From a virus: 64,000 bases of DNA. The notes beneath the pieces were generated by a model. The model saw only the letters and a program-made list of their open reading frames with translations, ran no database searches and was not told where the DNA came from. Every line of letters starts with the position of its first letter. The stretch's first letter is position 1. Shown here piece after piece: positions 26,555 to 39,074 of this stretch. A program made the position numbers and the translations under genes. The stretch covers positions 62,001-126,000 of IMG/VR virus record IMGVR_UViG_3300027770_000027; one strand, written 5' to 3'.

Positions 26555-26583
26555 ATCATAGATGATGATATGGGGAAGCTCCC
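26555..26583 (-). promoter_or_regulatory. leaderless-type promoter
   Basis: -35 GGGAGC (poor), spacer 17 opening TTCCCC, -10 TATGAT, 6 nt to the ATG at 26548. Confidence 0.75.
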
Positions 26584-26659
26584 GTCTTTTGTTGAAAGTG
26601 GGGTTAAATGAAGGTCTACAAATAGTATATGCAGACTTTTTAACCAAATAATATATGGA

Positions 26660-26905
26660 CTAAGATGTTAGTACATATTCTGTTTGTTCCTGCATGACAA
26701 CTCTATACAAACTTAAAGGTTCTGTTTTGAGTTTTTCTCTCCAAGCATTTAATGCCTCCTGGCCATCTGTATACATTCTTACAGATGACCATTCGAGGTC
26801 TTTATTAAAGAACTCTAGAAAAAATAATTTTGAATCACTGATACAAGTAGAAAGATATCTACCAGATTCTATTAATTCATTATAAGTGGCAGAGCTGTTT
26901 ATCAT
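26660..26905 (-). CDS. small protein of the second paralogous group
   Basis: 81 residues. LFFLEFFNKDLEWSSVRMY then a helix and LSLYRVVMQEQTEYVL. No TTCCCC promoter; probably transcribed with 26934 and 27239. Confidence 0.6.
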   Translation of the reverse strand: MINSSATYNELIESGRYLSTCISDSKLFFLEFFNKDLEWSSVRMYTDGQEALNAWREKLKTEPLSLYRVVMQEQTEYVLTS

Positions 26906-26933
26906 ATCACTACTTATCTAGATTTGACCGTTA

Positions 26934-27224
26934 TTACAGTTTCTGTAGAGGACTAATTTGCTGTGTACTAAGACTATTAATATCTTTAGTGGTTAATGTT
27001 GGAAAAGAATTATTACCATAACAAAAATTAGGAATATTCAAATTTTCAAGACTTCGGAGAGCAACTTTGGTTTCATTTAAAACCTTGAAAGAAGCTACTT
27101 CTGCTTCTAATGTGGAAGTTCTGTTCTTATAGAAAGAAAGGGCTTCTGTCAAAGCTTTATTAAGTTCTGTGAGAACAGTAACTTCTGTGCGAGGAAACAA
27201 ATGGGATGGGTATGGATTGTACAT
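26934..27224 (-). CDS. helical protein, unknown
   Basis: 96 residues. Coiled-coil middle (STLEAEVASFKVLNETKVAL), low-complexity ends. Confidence 0.55.
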   Translation of the reverse strand: MYNPYPSHLFPRTEVTVLTELNKALTEALSFYKNRTSTLEAEVASFKVLNETKVALRSLENLNIPNFCYGNNSFPTLTTKDINSLSTQQISPLQKL

Positions 27225-27238
27225 ATTTATATTATATT

Positions 27239-27562
27239 TTATTTGGTTTTTAATTCAACTACATTGTCTACTTTAGAATTCTCTTTAACTAAATTTTGTA
27301 TTTGGCGTTTTCTCCATCCTGAACCTTCTTTAGTGCTATTACTATCAAGAAATTGATAGAAACCAACACCTTGAGGACAATCTTCTGCATGAAAGATTGG
27401 TCCTGCTGCATCATCTAATTGAACCCAGAGCTTATCATAATCAATGTGATAAACTGTTCGTAGAATAGTTTGTCCAGATCCTGGATAATTCAAATCTGGC
27501 CAATTGACTTTGGAGTTTTTGCTGGTGACCTGATGGCTAATTACTAATATAACGTCTTTCAT
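27239..27562 (-). CDS. soluble protein, unknown
   Basis: 107 residues starting MKDVILVISHQVTSKN. Strand-rich, ends in a Lys/Val-rich tail. No motif recognised. Confidence 0.6.
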   Translation of the reverse strand: MKDVILVISHQVTSKNSKVNWPDLNYPGSGQTILRTVYHIDYDKLWVQLDDAAGPIFHAEDCPQGVGFYQFLDSNSTKEGSGWRKRQIQNLVKENSKVDNVVELKTK

Positions 27563-27566
27563 AAAA

Positions 27567-27863
27567 TTATTCTTCTACAGCTGCTAGATTACCTTCTTCA
27601 TCTCTTTCAGGTCCATAAGCGGTTTCAATTGGTTTACTACATTCAACACAATCAAAGACCCCTTCCCAAAGAACATCTACACGGACATTCCAAGGACCTA
27701 CATTCATTCGGGTGTCATTAACAATGACCTTGAAATCTCTTCGCACACATTCAGAACAAAGAACTCCGTCATGTACCAGGAAAGCTTTTGGATAAGCACC
27801 GGGCCATGTGTAAGGCTGACGGAGAGCTTCTTTGATATTTTCGACTCTTTTATTTTTCATCAT
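27567..27863 (-). CDS. double zinc-knuckle phage protein
   Basis: 98 residues. YTWPGAYPKAFLVHDGVLCS with CSEC, then VDVLWEGVFDCVEC and IETAYG match a widespread phage and bacterial protein with two CxxC knuckles. ATGATG start; the gap to the -10 is 5 nt instead of 6. Confidence 0.75.
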   Translation of the reverse strand: MMKNKRVENIKEALRQPYTWPGAYPKAFLVHDGVLCSECVRRDFKVIVNDTRMNVGPWNVRVDVLWEGVFDCVECSKPIETAYGPERDEEGNLAAVEE

Positions 27864-27868
27864 GTCTA

Positions 27869-27897
27869 ATATTACCCTGTGATGTGGGGAAGCTCCC
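27869..27897 (-). promoter_or_regulatory. leaderless-type promoter
   Basis: -35 GGGAGC (poor), spacer 17 opening TTCCCC, -10 TAATAT, 5 nt to the ATGATG at 27863. Confidence 0.75.
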
Positions 27898-27899
27898 GG

Positions 27900-28253
27900 T
27901 TAATGTGAATCTGGAAACCGATGCTCGCAAAAGGAGCAGCGTAGTGTAGTACTACCTTCCTCTACTGGAGACAAAGCTCCGGCTTGACAATCTGGACAAT
28001 GTCTTGTTTCTTGAATACTAGAATCATATTCCGTTGCTGAATGAGACATTTGAGTATAAGAACGTCCATCACCTACCACCGGACATATTGCTATATTATA
28101 TTCTCGACGAGGAGTTGGGGAGACATTAGTCAATACTACCTGAGCTGGTTTTTCAATAAAAGAAACTTCTGGTTCCGAAGGTTTATTACCAAAGTCTGTA
28201 AACCCTAAGCCCGCTACCAAACTAGTCACTACTACAAATATTTCTCTTTTCAT
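27900..28253 (-). CDS. membrane-anchored zinc-ribbon protein
   Basis: 117 residues. MKREIFVVVTSLVAGLGFTD is a signal or membrane anchor; the C-terminal part has HCPDCQAG and CSFCEHRF, a zinc ribbon. If the anchor is an uncleaved signal the ribbon could lie outside the cytoplasm. Not assignable to a family. Confidence 0.65.
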   Translation of the reverse strand: MKREIFVVVTSLVAGLGFTDFGNKPSEPEVSFIEKPAQVVLTNVSPTPRREYNIAICPVVGDGRSYTQMSHSATEYDSSIQETRHCPDCQAGALSPVEEGSTTLRCSFCEHRFPDSH

Positions 28254-28283
28254 ATGATTATTCTATCTTGTTATTTCTTTATA

Positions 28284-29195
28284 TTAAGCTGCGAACCAAA
28301 CAGTATCTGCTGCGCGACCTTGTTTAACAAGGAATCCAGCATTAACTAAATCTTTCATTACTTTCTGAACTTTCGATACGTCTCCACACACCTTAGCTGC
28401 ATTAGCTGCATTAATGGATCCGTTCTTCTGGACATATTCAAGGACATCATCAGAAGCTTTCTTAGCTTTCGAAACCTTAGGCTTCTTTTCATCACTATCT
28501 ACTTCAACGGATTCAAATACGAAACCGGTTTCAGACATTGGAAAAGAGGTAAATCCAGCCATTCCAAAACGATTCTTCGTAACTTCAATCTCACGGATAG
28601 CATAATCTTCTTCTGATTTACGAATCATAATATTCGCATCAACCGAATGAGGAAGAAGGGTAGAACCTTTATACTTTCCTTGCTTGGTAATATGCAGAAC
28701 AACTCCAACAACCACTTCTAATTCTTTCGCTTTCGTGGTAATAAAATTTGTAAGATATTCTTCAAGAGCTTTACCAGAAAGATCTTCATCACGCGAACGC
28801 ATAGAAGGAAGAGAATCAAGAATAACCATTCCGAAACCATTCTCTTTAACCGATTCAAAGATATCTTCGATACAGGTCATATTAGCAATCGAAACCATCT
28901 TTAGCTGTAAACGCTTAGCTGCAAACGCAAGCTGGTAGATAGATTCTTCTCCAGAGATATAAGCGGTACGCTTACCAGCTCTTTCAAGCAATTCGAGAAC
29001 CTGCAGAAGCAAGGTTGTCTTACCAGCTCCAGGCTCTCCCGCGAGGGTAAAGGTAGATCCAGGAACAAACCCATCCCCACCCAAGGCGACATCAAGATCC
29101 GCGACACCGGTCTTAAAACGACGATTGAAGACATCAGGAATCACAACTTCACTGACGCGTTGGAACTTCGTAGCTGCTTTAATTACTTTCATCAT
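28284..29195 (-). CDS. RadA/Sms-like RecA-fold ATPase with winged-helix tail
   Basis: 303 residues. Walker A GEPGAGKT (53-60), SGEES (81-85, exact RadA signature), Walker B VILDSLPS (about 124-131), and KNRFG near residue 207, the motif that separates RadA from RecA and drives branch migration. It lacks RadA's N-terminal zinc finger and C-terminal Lon-like domain; instead residues 245-303 look like a winged helix (DDVLEYVQKNGSINAANAAK). A role in recombination-dependent replication or repair is the natural inference. ATGATG start, own promoter. Confidence 0.85.
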   Translation of the reverse strand: MMKVIKAATKFQRVSEVVIPDVFNRRFKTGVADLDVALGGDGFVPGSTFTLAGEPGAGKTTLLLQVLELLERAGKRTAYISGEESIYQLAFAAKRLQLKMVSIANMTCIEDIFESVKENGFGMVILDSLPSMRSRDEDLSGKALEEYLTNFITTKAKELEVVVGVVLHITKQGKYKGSTLLPHSVDANIMIRKSEEDYAIREIEVTKNRFGMAGFTSFPMSETGFVFESVEVDSDEKKPKVSKAKKASDDVLEYVQKNGSINAANAAKVCGDVSKVQKVMKDLVNAGFLVKQGRAADTVWFAA

Positions 29196-29201
29196 GTATA
29201 T

Positions 29202-29230
29202 ATCTTAAGGGTTTATGTGGGGAACTGCAA
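29202..29230 (-). promoter_or_regulatory. leaderless-type promoter
   Basis: -35 TTGCAG, spacer 17 opening TTCCCC, -10 TAAGAT, 6 nt to the ATGATG at 29195. Confidence 0.8.
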
Positions 29231-29233
29231 GGT

Positions 29234-29320
29234 CTATCGAAGGTTCAACTCGAGGATCTCATTCAGTACAGCGGTGGCCTTGTTGCGGAGAACTGCGAGT
29301 GTCTTCTTTGCTTCCTTCAT
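29234..29320 (-). CDS. 28-residue helical peptide
   Basis: MKEAKKTLAVLRNKATAVLN then EILELNLR; an amphipathic basic helix. A promoter with standard spacing precedes it, but the first ATG of the usual pair is ACG, so initiation would be at the second. Confidence 0.55.
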   Translation of the reverse strand: MKEAKKTLAVLRNKATAVLNEILELNLR

Positions 29321-29329
29321 CGTGTAATA

Positions 29330-29358
29330 ATCTTAATAAAAGATGTGGGGAAGAGCCC
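29330..29358 (-). promoter_or_regulatory. leaderless-type promoter
   Basis: -35 GGGCTC (poor), spacer 17 opening TTCCCC, -10 TAAGAT, 9 nt to the ATG at 29320 (ACGATG). Confidence 0.7.
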
Positions 29359-29360
29359 GC

Positions 29361-29564
29361 TTATGATGTGAGGAAGCGCTCCTCGAACGCCGCCATCTCC
29401 TCATAGACAGACTGCTCTGCGACGATCTCCGAAGCCCAATCATCTGCACATTGCTGAGCATTGTCTCGAGAGAAGAATCCTCCCTCCACGAGACGATCGT
29501 TAATGAACACACCCCAATTCTTAGAACCTTGTTCTGTTTGTTTCTTGACGGTGATGTTAGTCAT
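29361..29564 (-). CDS. small protein of a local paralogous group
   Basis: 67 residues. WGVFINDRLVEGGFFSRDNA and AQQCADDW show the pattern of the 501-695 group; the C-terminal half is helical. A TAAGAT lies 7 nt before the ATG, but without TTCCCC, and doubles as the stop of the upstream gene. Confidence 0.65.
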   Translation of the reverse strand: MTNITVKKQTEQGSKNWGVFINDRLVEGGFFSRDNAQQCADDWASEIVAEQSVYEEMAAFEERFLTS

Positions 29565-29574
29565 ATTTAAAATC

Positions 29575-29706
29575 TTAAAGGTTCTCTACTTTAAATTTAC
29601 TCTTGCGTTGATATGTCTTGCGGTTCATGTAAACCACCTTGATCTGTCGATTACCAAACTGGGCTGTCTTTGCATATACCTTGTCTCCAACTTTGAGTGT
29701 TTTCAT
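29575..29706 (-). CDS. 43-residue KOW/SH3-like peptide
   Basis: Starts MKTLKVGDKVYAKTAQFGNR. VGDKVYA followed by strands and basic residues looks like a minimal SH3-type barrel. Its TAA overlaps a TAAGAT. Start reads ACAAGATG (single ATG). Confidence 0.55.
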   Translation of the reverse strand: MKTLKVGDKVYAKTAQFGNRQIKVVYMNRKTYQRKSKFKVENL

Positions 29707-29715
29707 CTTGTAATA

Positions 29716-29744
29716 ATCTTAGCTGAGGTTGTGGGGAAGCTCCC
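29716..29744 (-). promoter_or_regulatory. leaderless-type promoter
   Basis: -35 GGGAGC (poor), spacer TTCCCCACAACCTCAGC, -10 TAAGAT, 9 nt to the ATG at 29706. Confidence 0.75.
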
Positions 29745-29746
29745 GA

Positions 29747-29995
29747 CTATAAAGAGAATCTCTTTTGAAACGCCTGCATCAACAAATCATACATTGTCTC
29801 TCGGAATATTGAGAACTGCCAGGGCTCCTTGAGATACTGTGTTTCTGTAATCCATAGTTTAAGATTATGAGAGTCTCTAATAAACTGGACATAACTTTCA
29901 CCCTGGAAATTAAAACTCTCTGCAGTATTAAACAATGTTGTCAGACGATCCAGGACATCATTAAGCTCTTCACTGATAACATCATATCTATCCAT
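29747..29995 (-). CDS. helical small protein, unknown
   Basis: 82 residues from MDRYDVISEELNDVLDRLTT. Helical with an aromatic middle. No family recognised. Confidence 0.7.
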   Translation of the reverse strand: MDRYDVISEELNDVLDRLTTLFNTAESFNFQGESYVQFIRDSHNLKLWITETQYLKEPWQFSIFRETMYDLLMQAFQKRFSL

Positions 29996-30001
29996 ACTTT
30001 A

Positions 30002-30030
30002 ATACTACATGATGATGTGGGGAAGGTCAC
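30002..30030 (-). promoter_or_regulatory. leaderless-type promoter
   Basis: -35 GTGACC, spacer TTCCCCACATCATCATG, -10 TAGTAT, 6 nt to the ATG at 29995. Confidence 0.8.
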
Positions 30031-30052
30031 TGTTGTATTAACGAGAGTTGTA

Positions 30053-30238
30053 TTAAAGAATACAAGATCCGTGACGGCTTATAATATATGTTTTAATTCG
30101 ACACTGATGTAGATCTTCTAACCATTTGATAATATCTTTATCTGGTAATTGTCCAATAATCAAGGGAGGTATTACTTGAAAAGGAAGACTTCTTTTATCA
30201 GACTCCCATTCTATATTTTTAAGATGTGTCCAGTTCAT
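30053..30238 (-). CDS. small protein, unknown
   Basis: 61 residues, basic. ATGA coupling to the metallophosphoesterase upstream. No motif recognised. Confidence 0.6.
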   Translation of the reverse strand: MNWTHLKNIEWESDKRSLPFQVIPPLIIGQLPDKDIIKWLEDLHQCRIKTYIISRHGSCIL

Positions 30239-30978
30239 TGACTATTGTCTATTGATTCAAATGAATCTTTATCAAGATTAAATAAGAGAACTTCTGCTAG
30301 ATGACAATCAACATTAATATTTGTAGAATTAGTTTCCGGATGTGTAGAAGTAATTATTTTTCTAGAAGGAGTATGTCCTACAATCTGAGTGACATTATCA
30401 AAGAATTCTGAATTGTGCCAATCATTCCAAAGTAATCCACCCTTCTTATGTCTTCCACCTCTTATACGATCTGCTGCATACAAACAAGCAATGTCCCAGT
30501 CTCCTGTAGGAGCCTTTAAGGTTCTCTTGGCGTTTTCTATATTATAATTAATAGTATCTACAGTAACTCCCTTAAGAGGATGTTCAAACCAAAGTTTTGT
30601 AATACCCGCATGAGAGAACCAATACTCTTTATCTTTACCTTTAATGGAATGAAAGTATAAGAGTTTTTCCCAATCATCTGGTGTGAGAATTTTATTAATA
30701 ATTTCATGTTTCCAGTAAGCAAAACCGGAACAATACAACTTACCAATAGGTACCATATAATGAATGTCATGGTTACCCATTAAATGAAGACGCTTGGGAT
30801 TGGATAAAGATTCTTTAAGCCAATGTGCCATTGCTTCTACTTCAATAGCATTATCATCAAAGTCATCAAAGTAATCTCCTATAAAAATAGTTTGATCCAC
30901 TTCTGGTTCTCTTTTGAGAGCTTGCTCTACCAGAGCTACTTTTTGATGGACATCTCCAATAATTAAAAATTGATTCAT
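30235..30978 (-). CDS. metallophosphoesterase (calcineurin-like)
   Basis: 247 residues. Motifs in order: GDVH (8-11), FIGDYFDD (about 33-40), LMGNHDIHY (about 68-76), WFSHAG (about 119-124), and a late GHTPS. This is the full dinuclear-metal set of the calcineurin-like fold, close in layout to PP2A/ApaH-type phosphatases of phages. Substrate (protein, diadenosine or nucleic-acid phosphate) cannot be read. Coupled by ATGA to 30053-30238. Confidence 0.85.
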   Translation of the reverse strand: MNQFLIIGDVHQKVALVEQALKREPEVDQTIFIGDYFDDFDDNAIEVEAMAHWLKESLSNPKRLHLMGNHDIHYMVPIGKLYCSGFAYWKHEIINKILTPDDWEKLLYFHSIKGKDKEYWFSHAGITKLWFEHPLKGVTVDTINYNIENAKRTLKAPTGDWDIACLYAADRIRGGRHKKGGLLWNDWHNSEFFDNVTQIVGHTPSRKIITSTHPETNSTNINVDCHLAEVLLFNLDKDSFESIDNSQ

Positions 30979-30981
30979 ATA

Positions 30982-31137
30982 TTAGGAACAAAGAGCTTTA
31001 CACCAAGAAGACCAATCATGGACAGATTTTGTTTCAATTTTTGTTTCCTCTGCAAGTTGTTTTTGGGTCTCTTCTATTTCTAGATAGGTTTCTTCAAGGG
31101 CGAGGATGTCGTCAAAGGTCTCAATGTTGCTCATCAT
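30982..31137 (-). CDS. 51-residue acidic helical protein
   Basis: Starts MMSNIETFDDILALEETYLE; ends SSWCKALCS. ATGATG start 6 nt after TATTAT. Its first codons overlap the end of 31121-31369 by 17 nt. Confidence 0.6.
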   Translation of the reverse strand: MMSNIETFDDILALEETYLEIEETQKQLAEETKIETKSVHDWSSWCKALCS

Positions 31138-31369
31138 GTTCTAATAATAACTGCTCTTTAGGGGAAGAGCAACTAGATTTACATCTAGAACATTCCGAGC
31201 CCATTAATATGTCATACGCCTTGTCCAAGGCTAACTTATATTGTTCAAAGGTTTCCTCCAGCATAATTTTTTTCTCTCTAATTTCAAGCAAAGCTCTATA
31301 TAATAATATTGCTTGAACCGATACCATTAACAACCAAAAGAACGCTAGAAGAGCATCAAGAGTAAACAT
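31121..31369 (-). CDS. membrane protein with Cys-rich tail
   Basis: 82 residues from MFTLDALLAFFWLLMV (a TTG start at 31387 would add six residues). One membrane helix, a helical stalk, then SECSRCKSSCSSPKEQLL. The Cys-rich tail is encoded by the promoter of the next gene and overlaps its start. Confidence 0.6.
   Translation of the reverse strand: MFTLDALLAFFWLLMVSVQAILLYRALLEIREKKIMLEETFEQYKLALDKAYDILMGSECSRCKSSCSSPKEQLLLEHDEQH
31144..31172 (-). promoter_or_regulatory. leaderless-type promoter inside the upstream gene
   Basis: -35 TTGCTC, spacer TTCCCCTAAAGAGCAGT, -10 TATTAT, 6 nt to the ATGATG at 31137; wholly within gene 31121-31369. Confidence 0.75.
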
Positions 31370-31395
31370 AACAATACTATATACCAAAGCAATAA

Positions 31396-31426
31396 AAAAG
31401 GTCTAGACTTTAGATCTAGACCTTTT
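31396..31426 (-). terminator. strong intrinsic terminator
   Basis: Perfect 12-bp stem AAAAGGTCTAGA / TCTAGACCTTTT with a 7-nt loop; on the minus strand it ends in TTTTTT. It closes the leader-protein transcript (31450-31614) coming out of the tRNA region. Confidence 0.85.
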
Positions 31427-31449
31427 CAAATTCTGGGAGAGAATTTTAT

Positions 31450-31614
31450 TTAGAAACCCTTAGCGGCTGCTGTGTTCTTTTTAGACTTTTTACAAGCCGG
31501 ACATGTACATTTTTCATTTTTACATTTCTTACCCACTGTGCAAGGGCAAGGTGTTTTGGCTTCGTGAACAATTTGATAAGCTTGTTCTAATAGAATAGTG
31601 TCTTTGGTTCTCAT
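31450..31614 (-). CDS. leader-bearing Cys-rich (metallothionein-like) protein
   Basis: 54 residues. MRTKDTILLEQAYQIVHEA is the shared prohead-type leader; the rest is PCPCTVGKKCKNEKCTCPAC and a Lys/Ala tail, seven cysteines in 20 residues, able to bind several metal ions. If the leader is clipped after VHE, the product would be a Cys/Lys-rich peptide of about 36 residues inside the head. The start follows gene 31619-31798 by 4 nt. Function inferred only. Confidence 0.7.
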   Translation of the reverse strand: MRTKDTILLEQAYQIVHEAKTPCPCTVGKKCKNEKCTCPACKKSKKNTAAAKGF

Positions 31615-31618
31615 AAAA

Positions 31619-31798
31619 TTACATTTGTTCTCTGCGCCACCAATTTTCAAAATCAATTTGATCTTGGGATTTTACATCAGTGGGTTTTACATCAGCAAGT
31701 TTTGCTGCGGGAGGTTTAATAGGAGCAACAACTTCAGGAGTTTTGGTGTCGACAACTGGAGGAAGCTCTACTGGAGTTAAATTGTTATCAGCTGGCAT
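31619..31798 (-). CDS. Pro/Val-rich small protein
   Basis: 59 residues, starting MPADNNLTPVELPPVVDTKT, Pro/Val/Ala/Lys-rich and likely disordered, ending NWWRREQM. It lies between tRNA-Leu and the Cys-rich leader protein, probably on the same transcript. Confidence 0.55.
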   Translation of the reverse strand: MPADNNLTPVELPPVVDTKTPEVVAPIKPPAAKLADVKPTDVKSQDQIDFENWWRREQM

Positions 31799-31822
31799 AT
31801 GATATACTTACCCTAAAAGGGG

Positions 31823-31903
31823 TACGGACGGAGAGACTCGAACTCTCATGCCTTTCGGCGCCAGTTCCTAAGACTGGAGTGTCTGCCATTCCACCACGTC
31901 CGC
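31823..31903 (-). tRNA. tRNA-Leu (anticodon UAG)
   Basis: 81 nt, acceptor GCGGACG / CGTCCGT, anticodon stem CCAGT with loop CTTAGGA, long variable arm and canonical T-loop TTCGAGT. 3' CC present but not full CCA. Confidence 0.9.
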
Positions 31904-31928
31904 TTTTATGTATTTATCCAGAAAATGG

Positions 31929-32016
31929 TACACCGGGTGGGAATTGAACCCACACCTAGGAGTTATCTACTCAGTACGTGTATAAGACGTCTTGCTCTAC
32001 CGTGAGCTACCGGTGC
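31929..32016 (-). tRNA. tRNA, probable Ile (UAU), long variable arm
   Basis: 88 nt. Acceptor GCACCGG / CCGGTGT, D-arm GCTC / GAGC, canonical T-loop TTCAATT. The best anticodon stem is a 4-bp ACGT pair around CTTATAC, giving UAU, but a 4-bp variable hairpin (GAGT / ACTC) is not expected for tRNA-Ile, so the isotype is uncertain. Confidence 0.65.
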
Positions 32017-32036
32017 CTGTTGGGTTAAGTATTGTT

Positions 32037-32411
32037 ATGATTAGATTGGTTAAAGCTATCGGAGAAAAATTAAAAGGCAAGCCATTGGCAATGAGATCTC
32101 CTCATTGGGCAACTACTAGACGTCATCACTTAAAAGATCATTCTACATGTGCAGCTTGTGGTGGTACAGAAAAATTACAAGTACACCACAAACAGCCTTA
32201 TCATCTACATCCAGATTTAGAATTGGAACCTACTAATTTGATTACCTTGTGTGAATTTGGAGATATTGATTGTCATTATAATATAGGTCATCATAGAGAC
32301 TGGAAATCTTTTAATCCAAATGTAGTACAAGATGCTGCCGCCAACCTAACAATTATTAACGAAAAGAAAGTGCGCCCGGTTGGGATTGAACCAACGACCA
32401 AGGAATTATGA
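32037..32411 (+). CDS. HNH endonuclease (homing type) within the tRNA cluster
   Basis: 124 residues from MIRLVKAIGEKLKGKPLAMR. CAACGG starts a zinc knuckle, then QVHHKQPYHLHPDLELEPTN and LITLC give the His-His..Asn..His HNH core. It is on the strand opposite to its neighbours. The last 14 codons run antisense through the CAU-anticodon tRNA (reading KVRPVGIEPTTKEL), so the gene and tRNA share their 3' ends. The start may alternatively be 31992, inside a tRNA. Free-standing homing nucleases of this kind are common next to phage tRNAs. Confidence 0.8.
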   Translation: MIRLVKAIGEKLKGKPLAMRSPHWATTRRHHLKDHSTCAACGGTEKLQVHHKQPYHLHPDLELEPTNLITLCEFGDIDCHYNIGHHRDWKSFNPNVVQDAAANLTIINEKKVRPVGIEPTTKEL

Positions 32412-32443
32412 GTTCCCTGCTCTGACCACTGAGCTACAGGCGC
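32371..32443 (-). tRNA. tRNA with CAU anticodon (elongator Met or Ile2)
   Basis: 73 nt, acceptor GCGCCTG / CGGGCGC, loop CTCATAA, T-loop TTCAATC. The arm GGGAACTCATAATTCC and TTGGTCGTTGG resemble tRNA-Ile2 (lysidine-modified CAU, reading AUA) more than elongator Met. Confidence 0.85.
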
Positions 32444-32669
32444 TTATGATAAAATTATAATATATCGTAAGAGGGAAATCAACCAGGATGATGTGTTTTT
32501 CTCGCGAGTGTCTGTCACATCGTTCAACGGCCGACCAGCTTGAGCCAATCCATTACCGTCTAAGACCAGTGTTTAAGAAACACCCCTTTCACTAGGGTGT
32601 ACAGCTAGAGGTACTAACTTCAAACTGGACTAACTCTCTCTAGGTTGTCCGGCTAAGCCGGCTCGGATT
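32444..32669 (-). other. 226-nt noncoding stretch with hairpins
   Basis: No ORF or tRNA found. On the minus strand it has a CCGG-CTTAG-CCGG hairpin, an ACACCC / GGGTGT hairpin and a GATGTG / CACATC pairing around a CTCGCGAG element, so a structured RNA is possible. Confidence 0.35.
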
Positions 32670-32900
32670 CTATTTATCTAGTTGTTCTACAATATCTTCT
32701 TCTGAAAAAAGACCAGTAGGAGTAAACCCCAAATCTGCTTCAAGTTCTTCAAATCTATAAAGAAATCCTTTAGAGAGATCTTGCTCATCACTATCTTCTT
32801 CAATCTCTCCGGTATACAGACCTTCTCCTCGATATGAGGCGTCTGGCCACTTAGGATCTACATAGTCAATATAATAACGTTTACCGGTTACTGGAATCAT
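32670..32900 (-). CDS. small acidic protein, unknown
   Basis: 76 residues. MIPVTGKRYYIDYVDPKWPD then GEGLYTGEIEED looks like a small barrel followed by an acidic tail. A TATAAT lies 13 nt before the ATG, without the TTCCCC block. Confidence 0.65.
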   Translation of the reverse strand: MIPVTGKRYYIDYVDPKWPDASYRGEGLYTGEIEEDSDEQDLSKGFLYRFEELEADLGFTPTGLFSEEDIVEQLDK

Positions 32901-32935
32901 ATTTATATATTATAAGAACATTTAAAATATATCAA

Positions 32936-33202
32936 CTATGCTTTGGGTTTTCTTTTAAGAAACTCTGAAACAACTTTGTCTGCTGCTTTGAATTCTGTTG
33001 TATGATTAGCAACTGGCTCGATGTAACGATCCCAAAAGACTTCTGTATCAGGTTCACTACCGAACCTATTCTTGTAATCTACAACAAGAAAGCAACCTTC
33101 CTTTATGTTCACTCTAAACGCCTTCGTTTCTGGACCATCATATACACATTCAGTGCGGACATCCAACAATTGCTTACCTGAAGTTTGAGTTTGCTTTGTC
33201 AT
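32936..33202 (-). CDS. small soluble protein, unknown
   Basis: 88 residues. KAFRVNIKEGCFLVVDYKNR suggests a strand pair; basic C-terminus. It lies just downstream of a structured intergenic element (33227-33313). Confidence 0.65.
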   Translation of the reverse strand: MTKQTQTSGKQLLDVRTECVYDGPETKAFRVNIKEGCFLVVDYKNRFGSEPDTEVFWDRYIEPVANHTTEFKAADKVVSEFLKRKPKA

Positions 33203-33226
33203 GTTTAATACTTATAGAAAATAAAT

Positions 33227-33313
33227 CCAACGGCGCTCATGTCTCTGTCTCCCAACCACGGGACACACCAGAGAAATTATACATGGGTCGATGGTATAAT
33301 GAGATTCCGTTGG
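33227..33313 (-). ncRNA. candidate structured RNA, three-way junction
   Basis: Closing stem CCAACGG / CCGTTGG (7 bp), second helix CTCAT / ATGAG, then two hairpins: TATAC / GTATA and TCTCTG / CAGAGA with inner TCCC / GGGA. Strand inferred from neighbours. No known RNA family recognised. Confidence 0.5.
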
Positions 33314-33368
33314 CCACCAGAAGAGCTCACCGGGTCTTATATGTTACTGGTTAGATAACTTTTGTCCC

Positions 33369-33417
33369 TTTAAGTGATTTTTTTAAGTGAATCAACACCG
33401 GATCTTGTTTTAAGTGA
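33369..33417. repeat. three copies of TTTAAGTGA
   Basis: Exact 9-mers at 33369, 33382 and 33409 in a short intergenic stretch upstream of the structured element. Meaning unknown. Confidence 0.4.
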
Positions 33418-33432
33418 AAGCCAACACTAAGC

Positions 33433-33532
33433 TTTTCCAGGTTGGATTCGAACCAACGGCGAGCGCTTTGTCCCGGCATTTTGGCCCTTAACCATGAGGG
33501 AGCACTAGATCTACCAACTGAGTTACTGGAAA
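33433..33532 (-). tRNA. 100-nt tRNA-like gene, isotype unclear
   Basis: Perfect acceptor TTTCCAG / CTGGAAA and canonical T-arm GTTGG TTCGAAT CCAAC, but a degenerate D-stem and about 28 extra nt between D-arm and T-arm, so no convincing anticodon stem of 5 bp and 7-nt loop. Either a decayed tRNA or a tRNA-like RNA with an insertion. Confidence 0.45.
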
Positions 33533-33538
33533 ATTATG

Positions 33539-33634
33539 GAGACTAGGTTGGTCATTTCATCCAACATCCTGTACTGGTTCCTCAGAGTTTTATACTTAAA
33601 CTACTAGTCATTTGAAATTAAAGTGTCTAGTCTC
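33539..33634 (-). ncRNA. candidate structured intergenic RNA
   Basis: GAGACTAG at 33539 pairs with CTAGTCTC at 33627 and encloses a GTTGG / CCAAC hairpin. No ORF in the surrounding 183 nt, which also has a near-perfect palindrome around GATTAATC. Confidence 0.4.
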
Positions 33635-33718
33635 TCCCAGTGTCACACAACTACTTTACCAGATTAATCCGGTTACTCACTCCACATTGTGTAGAGGGCA
33701 TGTGTCGCAAAAAAATGG

Positions 33719-33803
33719 TCGCCTAGGCCGGACTCGAACCGGCACGAGGAGTGCTCCTCGACAGATTTTAAGTCTGTTGTGTCTGCCATTTCACCACTAG
33801 GCG
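33719..33803 (-). tRNA. tRNA-Leu (anticodon UAA)
   Basis: 85 nt plus encoded CCA (33716-33718). Acceptor CGCCTAG / CTAGGCG, anticodon loop CTTAAAA, strong variable arm CGAGGAG / CTCCTCG, T-loop TTCGAGT. Confidence 0.92.
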
Positions 33804-33833
33804 TGTCTATCAAAGATCATTTATTATGTTAAT

Positions 33834-33862
33834 ATCTTAACATCACTTACTGGGAAGGTCAC
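33834..33862 (-). promoter_or_regulatory. TTCCC promoter driving tRNA genes
   Basis: -35 GTGACC, spacer 17 opening TTCCCA, -10 TAAGAT; 30 nt upstream of tRNA-Leu(UAA). The same promoter class here has no start codon behind it. Confidence 0.7.
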
Positions 33863-33874
33863 CTGGGAAATTGG

Positions 33875-33945
33875 TAGTCCGCCCAGGGCTCGAACCTGGA
33901 ATAAGAGATTCAAAATCTCCTGTGTTACCATTACACCAACGGACT
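33875..33945 (-). tRNA. tRNA-Gln (anticodon UUG)
   Basis: 71 nt plus CCA. Acceptor AGTCCGT / GCGGACT, anticodon stem GGAGA / TCTCT with loop TTTTGAA, T-loop TTCGAGC. Confidence 0.92.
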
Positions 33946-33951
33946 ATATGG

Positions 33952-34024
33952 TCGTGATGGAGAGACTCGAACTCTCGATACCTTGGTCCCAAACCAAGTG
34001 CCATAGCCGCTAGGCGACATCACG
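33952..34024 (-). tRNA. tRNA-Pro (anticodon UGG)
   Basis: 73 nt plus CCA. Acceptor CGTGATG / CATCACG, anticodon stem CTTGG / CCAAG with loop TTTGGGA, T-loop TTCGAGT. Confidence 0.92.
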
Positions 34025-34038
34025 TTATCTAAAAATGG

Positions 34039-34109
34039 TTGACCATGAAGGTAACGCTCCTTCGTCCTTCGATTATCAGTCGAGAGCTCTACTTTTAAGC
34101 TAATGGTCA
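34039..34109 (-). tRNA. tRNA-Ile (anticodon GAU), rewritten T-loop
   Basis: 71 nt plus CCA. Acceptor TGACCAT / ATGGTCA (perfect), anticodon loop CTGATAA, T-stem GAAGG / CCTTC. The T-loop reads AGCGTTA instead of TTCRANY and the D-loop (AAAAGTA) lacks the GG pair. Sequence is closely related to the tRNA-Lys at 34274. Confidence 0.75.
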
Positions 34110-34115
34110 ATATGG

Positions 34116-34187
34116 AGCCAACAGTCGGGATTGAACCGACGACCGGTGGTTTACAAAACCACTGCTCTACCACTGAGCTATGCTGGC
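34116..34187 (-). tRNA. tRNA-Thr (anticodon UGU)
   Basis: 72 nt plus CCA. Acceptor GCCAGCA / TGTTGGC, anticodon stem GTGGT / ACCAC with loop TTTGTAA, T-loop TTCGATC. Confidence 0.92.
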
Positions 34188-34191
34188 AATG

Positions 34192-34264
34192 TGGAGCCTA
34201 AGGGATTCGAACCCTTCACCTATAGCTTGCAAAGCTACCGCTCTACCGAATGAGCTAAGACCCC
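34192..34264 (-). tRNA. tRNA-Ala (anticodon UGC)
   Basis: 73 nt. Acceptor GGGGTCT / AGGCTCC, anticodon stem GTAGC / GCTAT with loop TTTGCAA, T-loop TTCGAAT. CCA not fully encoded. Confidence 0.9.
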
Positions 34265-34273
34265 TTAAAATGG

Positions 34274-34344
34274 TGGACCATGAGGGTAACGCTCCCTCTT
34301 GATTCGGTTAAAAGCCGAGTGCTTTACTTTTAAGCTAATGGTCC
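34274..34344 (-). tRNA. tRNA-Lys (anticodon UUU), rewritten T-loop
   Basis: 71 nt plus CCA. Acceptor GGACCAT / ATGGTCC, anticodon loop CTTTTAA, T-stem GAGGG / CCCTC. T-loop AGCGTTA and D-loop AAAAGTA as in the tRNA-Ile at 34039. Confidence 0.78.
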
Positions 34345-34351
34345 GAAATGG

Positions 34352-34424
34352 TTGCACAGGTCGGATTCGAACCGACGATCTTTTGGTTATGAGCCAAATG
34401 AGTTGACCTCTTCTCTACCGTGCG
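34352..34424 (-). tRNA. initiator tRNA-fMet (anticodon CAU)
   Basis: 73 nt plus CCA. Acceptor CGCACGG / CTGTGCA leaves a C1xA72 mismatch, the bacterial initiator hallmark read by Met-tRNA formyltransferase; the D-stem GAG / CTC has the initiator-type A11-U24 pair. Anticodon loop CTCATAA, T-loop TTCGAAT. It has only two of the three G-C pairs normal in initiator anticodon stems (TTTGG / CCAAA). Confidence 0.85.
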
Positions 34425-34434
34425 ATTAAAATGG

Positions 34435-34506
34435 CTCCTGGAGTAGGACTCGAACCTACAACGTCCTCGTTAACAGCGAGGTGCTCTACCATTGAGCTAT
34501 CCAGGA
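34435..34506 (-). tRNA. tRNA-Asn (anticodon GUU)
   Basis: 72 nt plus CCA. Acceptor TCCTGGA / TCCAGGA, anticodon stem CCTCG / CGAGG with loop CTGTTAA, T-loop TTCGAGT, discriminator G. Confidence 0.92.
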
Positions 34507-34510
34507 ATGT

Positions 34511-34580
34511 AAGACCCGAGAGGAATTGAACCTCTAAACAGAAAGACTCATCTATCTGCCGACTTCCTTTCGGCGGGTCT
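34511..34580 (-). tRNA. tRNA-like gene, isotype unclear
   Basis: 70 nt. Acceptor AGACCCG / CGGGTCT and T-arm AGAGG TTCAATT CCTCT are perfect and the D-arm CCGA / TCGG is present, but the linker at positions 8-9 is missing and the anticodon arm folds as CAGA / TCTG with an oversized loop. Probably decayed or specialised. Confidence 0.45.
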
Positions 34581-34591
34581 ATTAAAATTAT

Positions 34592-34855
34592 TTATAGTTC
34601 ATAGACAGCATTGCTGTCAGATTCTTCACAAAACTCAACAAATCGTTTAAAATCTTCAACTGCATCAAGAGTACTTTCAAATTGATCCCAATAGCTGACA
34701 CCGTCCTGGTGTTCCGCTTCTGTAATATACTCTGCCAATAGATCTTCTAGAGGTTCTTTCCAAGAGACAACAGTCATGGCTGCATCAATAAAAGAAGTCT
34801 TCAAAGGATGTTCAAGGGTGTTCATGTCGTGGTGATTAGGATTGGTGTTTTTCAT
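34592..34855 (-). CDS. acidic small protein, unknown
   Basis: 87 residues, acidic and helical, from MKNTNPNHHDMNTLEHPLKT. It sits inside the tRNA cluster with its own promoter, 7 nt from the -10 to the ATG. Confidence 0.65.
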   Translation of the reverse strand: MKNTNPNHHDMNTLEHPLKTSFIDAAMTVVSWKEPLEDLLAEYITEAEHQDGVSYWDQFESTLDAVEDFKRFVEFCEESDSNAVYEL

Positions 34856-34862
34856 TGTTTAT

Positions 34863-34891
34863 ATATTAGAGGTTTATTATGGGAAGGTCAC
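34863..34891 (-). promoter_or_regulatory. leaderless-type promoter
   Basis: -35 GTGACC, spacer 17 opening TTCCCA, -10 TAATAT, 7 nt to the ATG at 34855. Confidence 0.7.
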
Positions 34892-34901
34892 TAAAAAATG
34901 G

Positions 34902-34984
34902 TGGGAGATGTGGGTAACGATCCCACCGAGCATGAATGCGCCAGATTTACAGTCTGGACCGTCTCCTTAACGGTATACTCTCCC
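34902..34984 (-). tRNA. tRNA-Tyr (anticodon GUA), rewritten T-loop
   Basis: 83 nt plus CCA. Acceptor GGGAGAG / ATCTCCC (six pairs), anticodon stem CCAGA / TCTGG with loop CTGTAAA, class II variable arm. T-loop ATCGTTA; the D-loop keeps GG. Confidence 0.8.
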
Positions 34985-34990
34985 AAAAAC

Positions 34991-35029
34991 TCCTAGGGGT
35001 TGGTCTCATTATTAAGAGGTGCCCTAGGA
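34991..35029 (-). ncRNA. hairpin in the leader of the tRNA-Tyr transcript
   Basis: TCCTAGGG / CCCTAGGA 8-bp stem enclosing CTC / GAG, between the promoter at 35082 and tRNA-Tyr. Could be a processing signal or separate small RNA. Confidence 0.45.
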
Positions 35030-35081
35030 CATGATGAAAACTGCTATGTAACTATCAAAGATCTAACTTAATTATGGTTTA

Positions 35082-35110
35082 AGTATACCAGCAGTCATGG
35101 GGAACTGCTC
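35082..35110 (-). promoter_or_regulatory. TTCCCC promoter without an adjacent ATG
   Basis: -35 GAGCAG, spacer 17 opening TTCCCC, -10 TATACT; predicted start near 35075. Drives the hairpin leader and tRNA-Tyr rather than a protein. Confidence 0.65.
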
Positions 35111-35127
35111 CTGGAAATTTATTTATC

Positions 35128-35316
35128 CTACACGTTGCTGATTTCCAAATTAATTTCTTCATCACTTAGTCGGCAATAAAGAGTTTCACCTGTGTCTGGA
35201 CAAATTTGAATCTTTACAAAACCTTCAGCTACCATGTATTTCAGATTTCGCATAATTGCTTCGCGAAGATATTCTTTATATTCTTTGTCGGTCATCATCA
35301 TTTCATCGTCTTTCAT
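35128..35316 (-). CDS. small acidic protein, unknown
   Basis: 62 residues from MKDDEMMMTDKEYKEYLREA. The ORF to 35364 would translate the promoter. LRNYM/MVAEGF resembles LKNYLIAEGF of 45789-46007, so the two may be distant paralogs. Confidence 0.7.
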   Translation of the reverse strand: MKDDEMMMTDKEYKEYLREAIMRNLKYMVAEGFVKIQICPDTGETLYCRLSDEEINLEISNV

Positions 35317-35323
35317 TGTTAGA

Positions 35324-35352
35324 ATCTTAAAGGATCTTACCGGGAAAGGCAC
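35324..35352 (-). promoter_or_regulatory. leaderless-type promoter
   Basis: -35 GTGCCT, spacer 17 opening TTCCCG, -10 TAAGAT, 7 nt to the ATG at 35316. Confidence 0.7.
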
Positions 35353-35356
35353 CTTG

Positions 35357-35578
35357 TTATTCAAGGCGGTGAGAACTGAAACGATGAGGAAATTTTTTAT
35401 CTATGCAAATAAATTCAATAGGCCCAAATCCTCTTTGTACTGCTAGGTACTCTTTATTGATCAGGGTAATTACTTTGTAATGAGTAACTTCTTCTTCTTC
35501 CTTGGGGGAATTCTTATCGGAAGCAAGTGCCGGAATAAAAACTGCGGCGGCTAATAGTAAACTTAAAGTCAATTTCAT
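35357..35578 (-). CDS. predicted exported protein
   Basis: 73 residues. MKLTLSLLLAAAVFIPALAS is a Sec signal peptide with an ALA-S cleavage site; the mature part (about 54 residues) is acidic then strand-rich. Destined for the periplasm or outside; role unknown. Confidence 0.7.
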   Translation of the reverse strand: MKLTLSLLLAAAVFIPALASDKNSPKEEEEVTHYKVITLINKEYLAVQRGFGPIEFICIDKKFPHRFSSHRLE

Positions 35579-35772
35579 AGGTTGTTTTTATTATAGTCTT
35601 TTATTTGTTCTTTGCAAGCTTCTTTTCTCGCCGTTGATCTAAAAAGGCGATTATTTCTACACCAAGAACAACGACCATGATTGCGGCAAGTCCAGTCAAA
35701 AGTCTTACTGGTACGTCCATAATAGGGTTTGCGGTTTTCTTTACCATGTAAAATAGATTTATCTAAGCTCAT
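35575..35772 (-). CDS. small zinc-binding protein (CRNHGxCxxCxxNR family)
   Basis: 65 residues. RKPYYGRTSKTFDWTCRNHG then RCSWCRNNR matches a very common bacterial and phage protein with a Cys/His metal site of unknown function. ATGA-coupled on both sides. Confidence 0.8.
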   Translation of the reverse strand: MSLDKSILHGKENRKPYYGRTSKTFDWTCRNHGRCSWCRNNRLFRSTARKEACKEQIKDYNKNNL

Positions 35773-35960
35773 GTAAAAATTACCGGATGATGTGCTTCTT
35801 TTTTAGCTAAAAAACAAGGTACACAAGATACTCTATTTTCTACACGATAACGGGCAAATCTTTTATCTAGACGCAATCCACAATGAACACAGGATTCATC
35901 AACAATTACCGGTTCATCATTAAACATTAGAACTTGTTTGTTCTTTTGGTTTTTGCTCAT
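35769..35960 (-). CDS. small zinc-finger protein
   Basis: 63 residues. CVHCGLRLDK..CVPC gives a four-Cys zinc site of the DksA/TraR or MJ type. Overlaps the 3' end of 35920-36048. Confidence 0.7.
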   Translation of the reverse strand: MSKNQKNKQVLMFNDEPVIVDESCVHCGLRLDKRFARYRVENRVSCVPCFLAKKEAHHPVIFT

Positions 35961-36048
35961 TTTTTTTCGACCAGTCTATTTCAGACCAATTTTCTACTAT
36001 TTTTTTAAGATTTTCTTTACGGCGTTTACTTCCTTTTCCGTTTGACAT
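35920..36048 (-). CDS. 42-residue MSNGKGSKRR-type protein
   Basis: Starts MSNGKGSKRRKENLKKIVEN and has NWSEIDWSK, the pattern of a short protein found in many phages. Overlaps 35769-35960 by 41 nt in another frame. Confidence 0.6.
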   Translation of the reverse strand: MSNGKGSKRRKENLKKIVENWSEIDWSKKNEQKPKEQTSSNV

Positions 36049-36051
36049 AAT

Positions 36052-36273
36052 CTATTCAACCAAAACAGCGGCATTGAGTCGATCAACCTCTGAAAGAATA
36101 GCACCGTCAACGTCTTCTACAACTTCACCGATTACTCGCTGAGTACTTTCTGGGTGATAAGAATAGAATCCTTGATCATTGCGAACAATTTCACCTAGTA
36201 CAGAGCCATTACGGTTATCATAGACGTCAAAACGACTTCCTGTCTTAGTTTGGATATGGATTAGTTTATTCAT
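36052..36273 (-). CDS. small strand-rich protein, unknown
   Basis: 73 residues, from MNKLIHIQTKTGSRFDVYDN. Beta then helix. An AATAAATA motif lies 3 nt before the ATG. Confidence 0.65.
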   Translation of the reverse strand: MNKLIHIQTKTGSRFDVYDNRNGSVLGEIVRNDQGFYSYHPESTQRVIGEVVEDVDGAILSEVDRLNAAVLVE

Positions 36274-36276
36274 GTG

Positions 36277-36284
36277 TATTTATT
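36277..36284 (-). promoter_or_regulatory. T4-late-like motif AATAAATA
   Basis: Ends 3 nt before the ATG at 36273; spacing is shorter than at the leader genes, so weaker evidence. Confidence 0.3.
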
Positions 36285-36295
36285 TTATATGTAGT

Positions 36296-36538
36296 TTAGT
36301 AAGAGTCACCGGAGTCTGAAGAATTAATACAATCTAATGCAAGCCACACATCAGAACTTATTTTAGGAGTTGTTGTTACAAGAGTTGCAGTAGCCCCGGA
36401 TGCAAATGATAGAGTGTATAGATGTTTGTTGTTACGTGTGAAGGTTCCTAGCAAAACATTTGTAGTAGTTCTGTAAAAATTGTAGGTGAGATATGTATCA
36501 TATTGTACATATATGGTAGAAAGGGAAGGGAATCTCAT
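36296..36538 (-). CDS. strand-rich small protein, unknown
   Basis: 80 residues, Thr/Tyr-rich (YLTYNFYRTTTNVLLGTFTR), predicted beta. No family recognised. Confidence 0.55.
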   Translation of the reverse strand: MRFPSLSTIYVQYDTYLTYNFYRTTTNVLLGTFTRNNKHLYTLSFASGATATLVTTTPKISSDVWLALDCINSSDSGDSY

Positions 36539-36545
36539 CTTATAT

Positions 36546-36707
36546 TTAGGAAATAATGAATATAGTACAGAGAATAAGAATACTAAAGCCTAAACTTAAA
36601 CATCCCAGGATTACTACTTTTTGTTTATATGAAAACATTTCTGTATTTCTATAAGGTAAAGGGGAATAAATAGGCCGGCCGTTGTCATAACTAATTAAAT
36701 ATTTCAT
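36546..36707 (-). CDS. 53-residue C-terminally anchored membrane protein
   Basis: Starts MKYLISYDNGRPIYSPLPYR; the last 23 residues form one membrane helix. ATGA coupling to 36704-37030. Confidence 0.55.
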   Translation of the reverse strand: MKYLISYDNGRPIYSPLPYRNTEMFSYKQKVVILGCLSLGFSILILCTIFIIS

Positions 36708-37030
36708 AGGTGATTACCATTTTTAAGTTCTTCCAAATAACCACACAGGTGTAATACTTTATAGAAAGCTTTTTTATTATTTTGCTTCTTATTAAAACGG
36801 GCAGTATCTGGACAAATATGTTCAGCCATGGCTGTATGAGGGCCTCCTGCAAAAATACCCGCCGGAATAGTAACCTTGCACAAAGTAGAACCTCCTAGAT
36901 GAGACAATCTTTTAGATTGGTCCATGCGTTTTTGTCCAAATGGAGGTTCTACGTAACGACGCCAATGGCGAAAGGTGATCTTCCACCCGTGTTTCTTCAA
37001 GCTATTGTAGTCTAGTGGTTGCTTGCTCAT
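36704..37030 (-). CDS. basic soluble protein, unknown
   Basis: 108 residues. Basic (ITFRHWRRYVEPPFGQKRM), with KVTIPAGIFAGGPHTAMAEH and CPDTARFNKK, likely a small fold with nucleic-acid affinity. Own promoter; ATG 6 nt after TAATAT. Confidence 0.7.
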   Translation of the reverse strand: MSKQPLDYNSLKKHGWKITFRHWRRYVEPPFGQKRMDQSKRLSHLGGSTLCKVTIPAGIFAGGPHTAMAEHICPDTARFNKKQNNKKAFYKVLHLCGYLEELKNGNHL

Positions 37031-37036
37031 GATTTT

Positions 37037-37065
37037 ATATTAGGTAGAAATGATGGGAACTTCAA
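37037..37065 (-). promoter_or_regulatory. leaderless-type promoter
   Basis: -35 TTGAAG, spacer 17 opening TTCCCA, -10 TAATAT, 6 nt to the ATG at 37030. Confidence 0.75.
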
Positions 37066-37711: not shown

Positions 37712-37981
37712 ATGAAATTTAATGAACTAGTCAATTTTTTATTAGAAAAATACAGTAAACCATGTACTAAAGTAACCGGGCAACAATCTTCTACTCGAGA
37801 TGATAAAAAATATATGAGATGTGCTAAAGTAGATGGTAAACTTAAAAGAGTTCATTATGGAGACCCTAATATGAGAATTAAGAAGTCTAACCCTAAAAAC
37901 CGCAAAAGTTATAGGGCTAGACATCATTGTAGCTCAGCCAAACCAGGAACTCCCGAATATTTTAGCTGCAAGAACTGGTAA
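37712..37981 (+). CDS. T4-like virion-associated Lys-rich small protein
   Basis: 89 residues, plus strand. Leader-like start MKFNELVNFLLEKY, then KKYMRCAKVDGKLKRVHYGD and NMRIKKSNPKNRKSYRARHH with C-x(n)-C ends. This YGD-M-I-K-x-x-P-x-x-RKSFRARHxC pattern marks a small basic protein common in T4-like and jumbo phages. Convergent with the RNA ligase, overlapping its 3' end by 20 nt. Confidence 0.75.
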   Translation: MKFNELVNFLLEKYSKPCTKVTGQQSSTRDDKKYMRCAKVDGKLKRVHYGDPNMRIKKSNPKNRKSYRARHHCSSAKPGTPEYFSCKNW

Positions 37982-39074
37982 AGGCTTTCCAATACTTGTG
38001 GGGAGAGATTTCTTTGCCATCTAGTATAGCAAATGCTATGCCACTACAATCGGAAAGATATTGCAAGATCTTTTGAGCCTTTCCCTTTCGATCTAAAGTA
38101 ACAAAATCTGGTTTGGTGAAATATATTTTAATTCTGTTAATTTCAATATTAATTTTATTCATCTTCAAATATAACTCATCCATTAAAGATTCCAGAGTTA
38201 CAACTAACTCCCAATCAAAATTAGCAGCTAACAATGCTTCAAAGTTCTCTCTTTGAGGTTGTCCATACTCTACAAATAAATCAAATAAATGATCTACGGT
38301 CTTTACACCTGTAAAGATTCGATGTAGCTGAAGATAACGAAGAGTCTTAATCTTCTTCAAGATTTGGCCACCACCATATCCAGGAGCATCATCATAAATA
38401 ACCACTCCTTCAATGTCAGCCAGTGGCTCAATGCGCTTTTTAATATCTTCAATACTACCCCCTAAACTAATACCGTAAGACTTGGGTCGTTCAACACCCA
38501 TTTCTTTTGCATAGGTGTCAAGGTTGTGTTGGTTAACATATGAATAATCTGGGTGATAAACCATTCCAATCAACCACAAGGTGGGTTCGGTAGATTCATT
38601 CAATACAATTCTATTAGTTGGTGTAGTCCACTCAAACAGTAAAGTATATAAACCACAATCCAACCATTCCAACCATTCATTATCAAAAACTTTGGGATAC
38701 TTCTTCTTGAGAAATTCAATTTCATGACCATTTTCAAGCTGAGAGGCATCAACTGTGCCTCGGGTGCGAATAATAAGTTCACCCCTGTATCTGCTAACAA
38801 TTAAACAAGACCCATCAATTTTCTGAATTGCTCTAACACCATCTTCTGGATTTAGAGGTTCAAATTCTGGCTTCTCACCATAGTTCATGAACTTCCGGAA
38901 ACCTAGAGACACTGGCATCATATCAGACTTGCGCCATATAGAAGAACGGAAGAACTTATTTTCTTCGGTCCATTCTACACCCATGTTCTTGGGGGTAACC
39001 AGAACACATTCATCCCCTGCAATGACACAATCCTTGAGGTGAAATTGGTCTGAATTGGGAAGTTCTATTTTCAT
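37962..39074 (-). CDS. RNA ligase, T4 Rnl1-like
   Basis: 370 residues. Motif I KIDG with catalytic Lys85, preceded by FRKFMNYGEKPEF (as in T4 Rnl1); TLLFEWTTPTNRIVL as motif IIIa region; IEGVVIYD as motif IV; and KKIKTLRYLQLH as motif V. T4 Rnl1 (374 residues) seals tRNA anticodon loops cut by host nucleases; length and motifs agree. The C-terminal domain is helical. ATGA coupling to 39071-39775. Confidence 0.85.
   Translation of the reverse strand: MKIELPNSDQFHLKDCVIAGDECVLVTPKNMGVEWTEENKFFRSSIWRKSDMMPVSLGFRKFMNYGEKPEFEPLNPEDGVRAIQKIDGSCLIVSRYRGELIIRTRGTVDASQLENGHEIEFLKKKYPKVFDNEWLEWLDCGLYTLLFEWTTPTNRIVLNESTEPTLWLIGMVYHPDYSYVNQHNLDTYAKEMGVERPKSYGISLGGSIEDIKKRIEPLADIEGVVIYDDAPGYGGGQILKKIKTLRYLQLHRIFTGVKTVDHLFDLFVEYGQPQRENFEALLAANFDWELVVTLESLMDELYLKMNKINIEINRIKIYFTKPDFVTLDRKGKAQKILQYLSDCSGIAFAILDGKEISPHKYWKAFTSSCS

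Follow-up and report, generated by a model that had tools for sequence, protein, structure and literature searches.

A virus-encoded initiator tRNA of bacterial type, judged from sequence, in a lineage of large T4-like viruses

The window analysed here, a stretch of 64,000 nucleotides corresponding to bases 62001-126000 of a 227,352-base IMG/VR virus record (G000), holds on its minus strand, at 34424..34349, a gene that, judged from its sequence, is a genuine bacterial-type initiator tRNA-fMet(CAU). The gene quite probably encodes a working initiator, as one component of a general set of translation tools that does not serve leaderless genes alone. The presence of tRNA genes in phages has long called for an explanation, and because every gene needs the initiator tRNA, the usual explanation of codon compensation cannot account for a phage copy of it.

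Sequence and identity of the tRNA gene

ARAGORN identified a tRNA-Met(CAT) at 34349-34424 on the minus strand, and Rfam model RF00005 matched 34352-34424 with 63.2 bits (E 2.3e-11), flagging 1:72 as the non-standard pair. The gene reads CGCACGGTAGAGAAGAGGTCAACTCATTTGGCTCATAACCAAAAGATCGTCGGTTCGAATCCGACCTGTGCA-A-CCA; the initial annotation had placed it correctly at 34352-34424, with the end of the gene moving to 34349 once the encoded CCA (34349-34351) is included. A templated CCA is not special in this virus, being found in 11 of 14 checked tRNAs of the record. The sequence can be fitted to a well-formed cloverleaf. Read position by position, the acceptor stem opens with C1xA72, which does not form a Watson-Crick pair, followed by G2:C71 and C3:G70; A11:U24, a purine-pyrimidine pair, is present in the D stem; the anticodon loop is CUCAUAA with the anticodon CAU; and the anticodon stem has U29:A41, G30:C40 and G31:C39, and hence two of the three usual G:C pairs. 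Each of the features on which the initial annotation had relied, namely the C1xA72 mismatch, the A11-U24 pair, the CAU anticodon, the encoded CCA and the incomplete set of anticodon-stem G-C pairs, was thus recovered. The D stem also carries an A13xA22 mismatch, which that annotation did not mention. Thermodynamic folding of the gene was not distinctive (z -1.7), and the D stem was missing from the predicted fold.

The determinants of Met-tRNA formylation are a 1x72 mismatch, G2:C71, C3:G70 and A11:U24 (PMC7949028), and all four are present in the phage tRNA. Of 4438 cellular initiators, 98.6% are mismatched at 1x72 and A:U occupies 11:24 in 4430, while position 1:72 is paired in 99.5% of elongators (PMC5143459). 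Covariance models were built for viral initiator tRNAs (28 sequences) and viral elongator CAU tRNAs (19 sequences), neither set including the query. The phage tRNA reached 84.1 bits under the initiator model, as against 61.4 bits under the elongator model. A second CAU tRNA of the window (32370..32443, minus), which has paired G1:C72 and C11:G24, gave the opposite result (41.5 bits with the initiator model, 73.7 with the elongator model) and is of the elongator Met type. The formyl-Met initiator identity proposed in the initial annotation is upheld by the tRNA's own determinants, by these scores and by the persistence of the determinants in relatives that have other mismatches.

Conservation in relatives

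Relatives were gathered by means of the portal protein, and the tRNA cluster was readable in six viruses, five of which have an initiator-type CAU tRNA. The letters at 1x72 differ in all five, being CxA in G000, AxC in G018 (225 kb), CxC in G019, UxU in G013 and AxA in G014, and A11:U24, G2:C71 and C3:G70 are kept in every one. All 75 of the other (non-CAU) tRNAs of the same viruses are paired at 1:72, which indicates that what is preserved in the initiators is the lack of a pair and not the particular letters; the probability that all five mismatches would coincide by chance with the initiator-type genes, also five in number, is 4e-8. With G018, G019 and G013, the three relatives that could be aligned, the query is identical at only 47-58 of 76 bases, and the initiator features have therefore survived real divergence. 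This pattern reflects selection for initiator identity in the lineage and provides clean comparative evidence of such selection in a virus, with five different 1x72 mismatches and all of the formylation determinants kept.

In both G018 and G013 the fMet gene is adjoined by a tRNA-Thr gene, an arrangement suggestive of vertical descent. The G013 copy is separated by a narrow margin (58.6 bits with the initiator model, 55.3 with the elongator model), and that of G014 (L194:4102-4196, minus) is lengthened by about 20 nt inserted between the anticodon stem and the T arm and may be decaying. G008, a 111-kb fragment with 5 tRNAs, has an elongator tRNA-Met only. A strict scan of viral contigs for TTCCCC-N11-TAAGAT-N6-ATGATG yielded a sole contig, G017. 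It shares the tRNAs of G000 and comes from an identical or almost identical virus, and so was not treated as an independent case.

The virus and the setting of the gene

The window encodes a terminase, a T4-type portal, a tail sheath, a sheath stabiliser, a baseplate wedge, a DNA helicase, a DNA polymerase and RNA ligase, which together identify the virus as a large T4-like myovirus. No close relative was found among cultured phages, the best portal matches being about 30% identical, and a near-identity search of INPHARED with the window for named relatives returned tRNA matches only. Bacterial genomes searched with the portal protein gave no relative and a search with ribonucleotide reductase led only to distant, mixed taxa, so that neither search revealed the host.

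The translation kit of the G000 record comprises 15 tRNAs and one tmRNA. The initiator gene lies in a cluster on the minus strand (31821..34506; ARAGORN and Rfam) with the members Leu(UAG), Ile(UAU), Met, Leu(UAA), Gln, Pro, Ile(GAU), Thr, Ala, Lys, fMet and Asn. An origin of the gene as a prophage attachment site was considered and rejected, given its position within this 12-tRNA cluster of a T4-like virus; some of the single-tRNA contigs of the survey described below may be of the attachment-site type. Directly upstream of the cluster is an 87-aa open reading frame (34592..34855, minus) with no Pfam match, and a leaderless-type promoter, TTCCCATAATAAACCTCTAATATATAAACA (34856..34885, minus), ends at its ATG; this promoter could transcribe on into the tRNA cluster. 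Two different RNA ligases are encoded close by on the same strand, one of the T4 Rnl1 type, a tRNA repair family (37962..39074; phrog_562 6e-33, PF09511 9e-12), and the other with PF09414 and a PHA02142 OB fold (42510..43547), which suggests tRNA repair.

Several other features of this translation kit were observed. The tRNA-Ile(GAU) at 34039-34109 (minus) was overlooked by ARAGORN and scored 50.2 bits in Rfam, and a 100-nt tRNA-like stretch at 33433-33532 (minus; 28.6 bits, slightly below the Rfam cut-off) is possibly a tRNA with an insertion. In all five viruses, the tRNA-Ile(UAU) measures 91-95 nt, an unusual length for an isoleucine tRNA (window 31926-32016; L195:11966-12058; L197:3196-3289; L404:6050-6144; L406:3470-3564). 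The tmRNA (RF00023) is located at L003:19411-19835, minus (G000 39411-39835; 132.6 bits); G019 also has one (L405:6431-6881, minus; 104.4 bits), and the tag peptides that ARAGORN predicts for the phage and for G019 have the endings ELAA and LMAA. A blastn search of phage records gave no match. A peptide deformylase was looked for and is not encoded. Ribosomal protein bS21 is absent from G000 and, among the viruses checked, present in G013 only, where its gene (G013:21101-21226) and that of the initiator tRNA are about 0.5 kb apart.

Leaderless-type promoters

The promoter array to which the initial annotation had linked the tRNA is real. The motif TANNAT-N6-ATGATG occurs at 18 sites in the window where 0.43 are expected from shuffles, and across the full record the minus strand holds 38 TTCCC-N12-TANNAT-N5-7-ATG sites, compared to 0 for the reversed control pattern. 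Most of the array falls within 1..37060 (minus), as located by motif scans and the aligned consensus, CTTGAGG-TTCCCCA-N10-TAAGAT-N6-ATGATGAA; if the A of the ATG is taken as +1, the -35 and -10 elements lie at -35 and -12, and from this position of the promoters the genes of the array would be leaderless. Shine-Dalgarno (SD)-like motifs upstream of genes are at or below background (8 of 280, against 14 in the control window). A peak of the -10 element exactly 6 nt before the ATG was found in G000, G008, G018, G013, G014 and G020, alongside SD motifs at or near background, the pattern being weakest in G018 (8 vs 2). Altogether, G000 has about 40 leaderless-type sigma-70 promoters, many with a double ATG (ATGATG).

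The first G:C pair of the anticodon stem

Within the lineage, four members have U:A at 29:41; G018 has A:U there, together with C30:G40, and G013 has U31:G39. A survey of viral contigs was made with a pattern that constrained positions 27, 30 and 39 and left 29 and 41 unconstrained, and among the 112 initiator-type tRNAs obtained, 29:41 was A:U in 48, G:C in 31 and U:A in 30. Where the initiator is located in a phage tRNA cluster, the pair is other than G:C in 24 of 33. With cellular initiators, the corresponding values are 87% G:C and 12.5% A:U, any other state accounting for at most 0.3% and U29:A41 for no more than 15 of 4438 (PMC5143459). Three G:C pairs are therefore typical of cellular initiators and not universal, and since about 13% of them lack G29:C41 (PMC5143459), the three pairs were not treated as defining. 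The difference between phage and cellular 29:41 has p 7e-15 (1e-10 for U29:A41) against a cellular table that is weighted by sequenced genomes, and it is to be taken as a lead and not as a finished result. As such, it suggests a testable general rule: in phage initiators, the first of the three G:C pairs conserved in the anticodon stem has often given way to another pair, including the U29:A41 state that is almost absent from cells.

No association was found between the identity of 29:41 and either SD use or GC content. A stem with two of the three G:C pairs is thus usual in phage initiators regardless of SD use, and gives no sign of adaptation to leaderless genes. In E. coli, a full mutant of the three G:C pairs (UA/CG/AU) was inactive in initiation (PMC10486304); taken with U29:A41 and A13xA22, this means that activity of the phage tRNA in its host is not guaranteed.

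Possible roles of the phage initiator

As a general component of the translation kit, the tRNA would be transcribed together with the surrounding cluster, charged by the methionyl-tRNA synthetase of the host, formylated by the host formylase and delivered to the P site by host IF2, thereby supplementing or replacing the host initiator during infection. The added initiator would sustain initiation on phage mRNAs that are SD-less and in part leaderless, and it would serve as the start-codon counterpart of the phage's own tRNAs and tmRNA.

The initial annotation had gone further in tying the tRNA specifically to the leaderless array. Its premise of a role for initiator tRNA in the translation of leaderless mRNA is supported by the literature, where raised fMet-tRNA strongly enhanced leaderless translation and canonical translation only mildly (PMC9031893), and the transition from 30S to 70S, at which the three G:C pairs exert their effect (PMC7949028), would be bypassed in 70S initiation. 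An extra fMet-tRNA with a relaxed anticodon stem might, in this way, selectively drive 70S initiation on ATGATG mRNAs, and the strength of the array, with its 6-nt spacing in six viruses and SD motifs near background, would fit such a role. The specific tie was not borne out by the survey: at 120 viral loci with initiator tRNAs, there was no leaderless excess (ratio 1.03) and SD motifs were plentiful, at 5.3-fold over background, compared to a leaderless ratio of 1.13 and a 7.5-fold SD excess at 119 tRNA-Asn control loci (Mann-Whitney p 0.51 for leaderless) and values of 2.93 and 0.5, respectively, for G000 by the same measures. Phages with ordinary SD use and no leaderless excess thus carry their own initiator, which does not need leaderless genes. 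Six of the 119 control loci hold an A11-type CAU tRNA (divergent initiators), too few to change the picture, and SD excess is slightly lower at the initiator loci (0.167 vs 0.226, p 0.017), a difference too small to build on. Moreover, whether G29:C41 is lost bears no relation to SD use, and G008 has a strong leaderless peak with no initiator in its 111-kb fragment; all sampled members of the lineage have leaderless promoters, and so there is no contrast to be drawn within it. A dedicated leaderless initiator is for these reasons rather unlikely. Less likely again is the broader proposal that the lineage runs an SD-independent mode of translation, combining AUGAUG-start promoters of the sigma-70 type, an initiator with weakened G:C pairs suited to 70S initiation, tmRNA and, in one relative, bS21, in which the initiator would bias ribosomes towards phage leaderless mRNA.

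The tRNA might also be a spare that replaces host initiator destroyed or blocked by VapC, AtaT or phage-triggered nucleases, its stem changes reducing recognition. It is exactly tRNA-fMet that VapC cleaves and, as Met-tRNA-fMet, AtaT acetylates (PMC7180214), overexpression of metZWV partly rescues VapC toxicity (PMC8522696), the Rnl1-type ligase lies 3.5 kb from the tRNA, and the 29:41 pair sets phage initiators, taken together, apart from those of cells. Evasion of anticodon nucleases by phage tRNAs is, however, proposed to work by mutations that make the anticodon loop differ from that of the host tRNA where it is cleaved, and a general avoidance of tRNA-fMet by phages has been reported where this tRNA is cut by VapC (PMC10264068); the loop of the phage initiator is the general consensus, CUCAUAA. 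Such a counter-defence function is likewise rather unlikely. That the tRNA is non-functional or serves in elongation only, its initiator-like features having been kept by chance or through recent capture from a host, is disfavoured and very improbable: U29:A41 and A13xA22 are uncommon and the G014 copy carries an insertion, but the formylation determinants are kept in four relatives with four other mismatches, a 1x72 mismatch is almost never found in elongators, and G000 has a separate elongator tRNA-Met. A working initiator of general use is the reading preferred here.

Relation to known initiator tRNAs

The phage tRNA resembles cellular bacterial tRNA-fMet in its anticodon and loop, in G2:C71, C3:G70, A11:U24, G30:C40 and G31:C39, in its templated CCA and in a 1x72 mismatch of the commonest type, C1xA72; it differs in having U29:A41 for G29:C41, in A13xA22 and in being encoded by a virus. 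Phage initiator tRNAs are already known, including from cultured phages (D3, PA5oct and VH7D), and the present gene adds a further case. A tRNA-fMet is annotated in the Erwinia jumbo phage pEa_SNUABM_47 (PMC7760394), and two copies are annotated in the huge phage 1-SewaA (PMC10747093). Initiator-type tRNAs labelled just tRNA-Met were found in D3, PA5oct, DSS3_MAL1, Slicko01 and BL57, and unannotated ones in VH7D and Lak-A2. No paper testing the function of phage initiator tRNAs was found in the literature library searched. As in the tRNA arrays of T4-like and jumbo phages, the gene shares a one-strand cluster with many other tRNA genes, and small open reading frames lie alongside, whereas most tRNA-bearing phage loci are without an initiator, as the tRNA-Asn controls illustrate. 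The initiator model scored above the elongator model in all eight of the phage-encoded initiator tRNAs checked, which represent the same kind of gene in other phage groups; compared to those phages, the present lineage is SD-less and has leaderless promoters.
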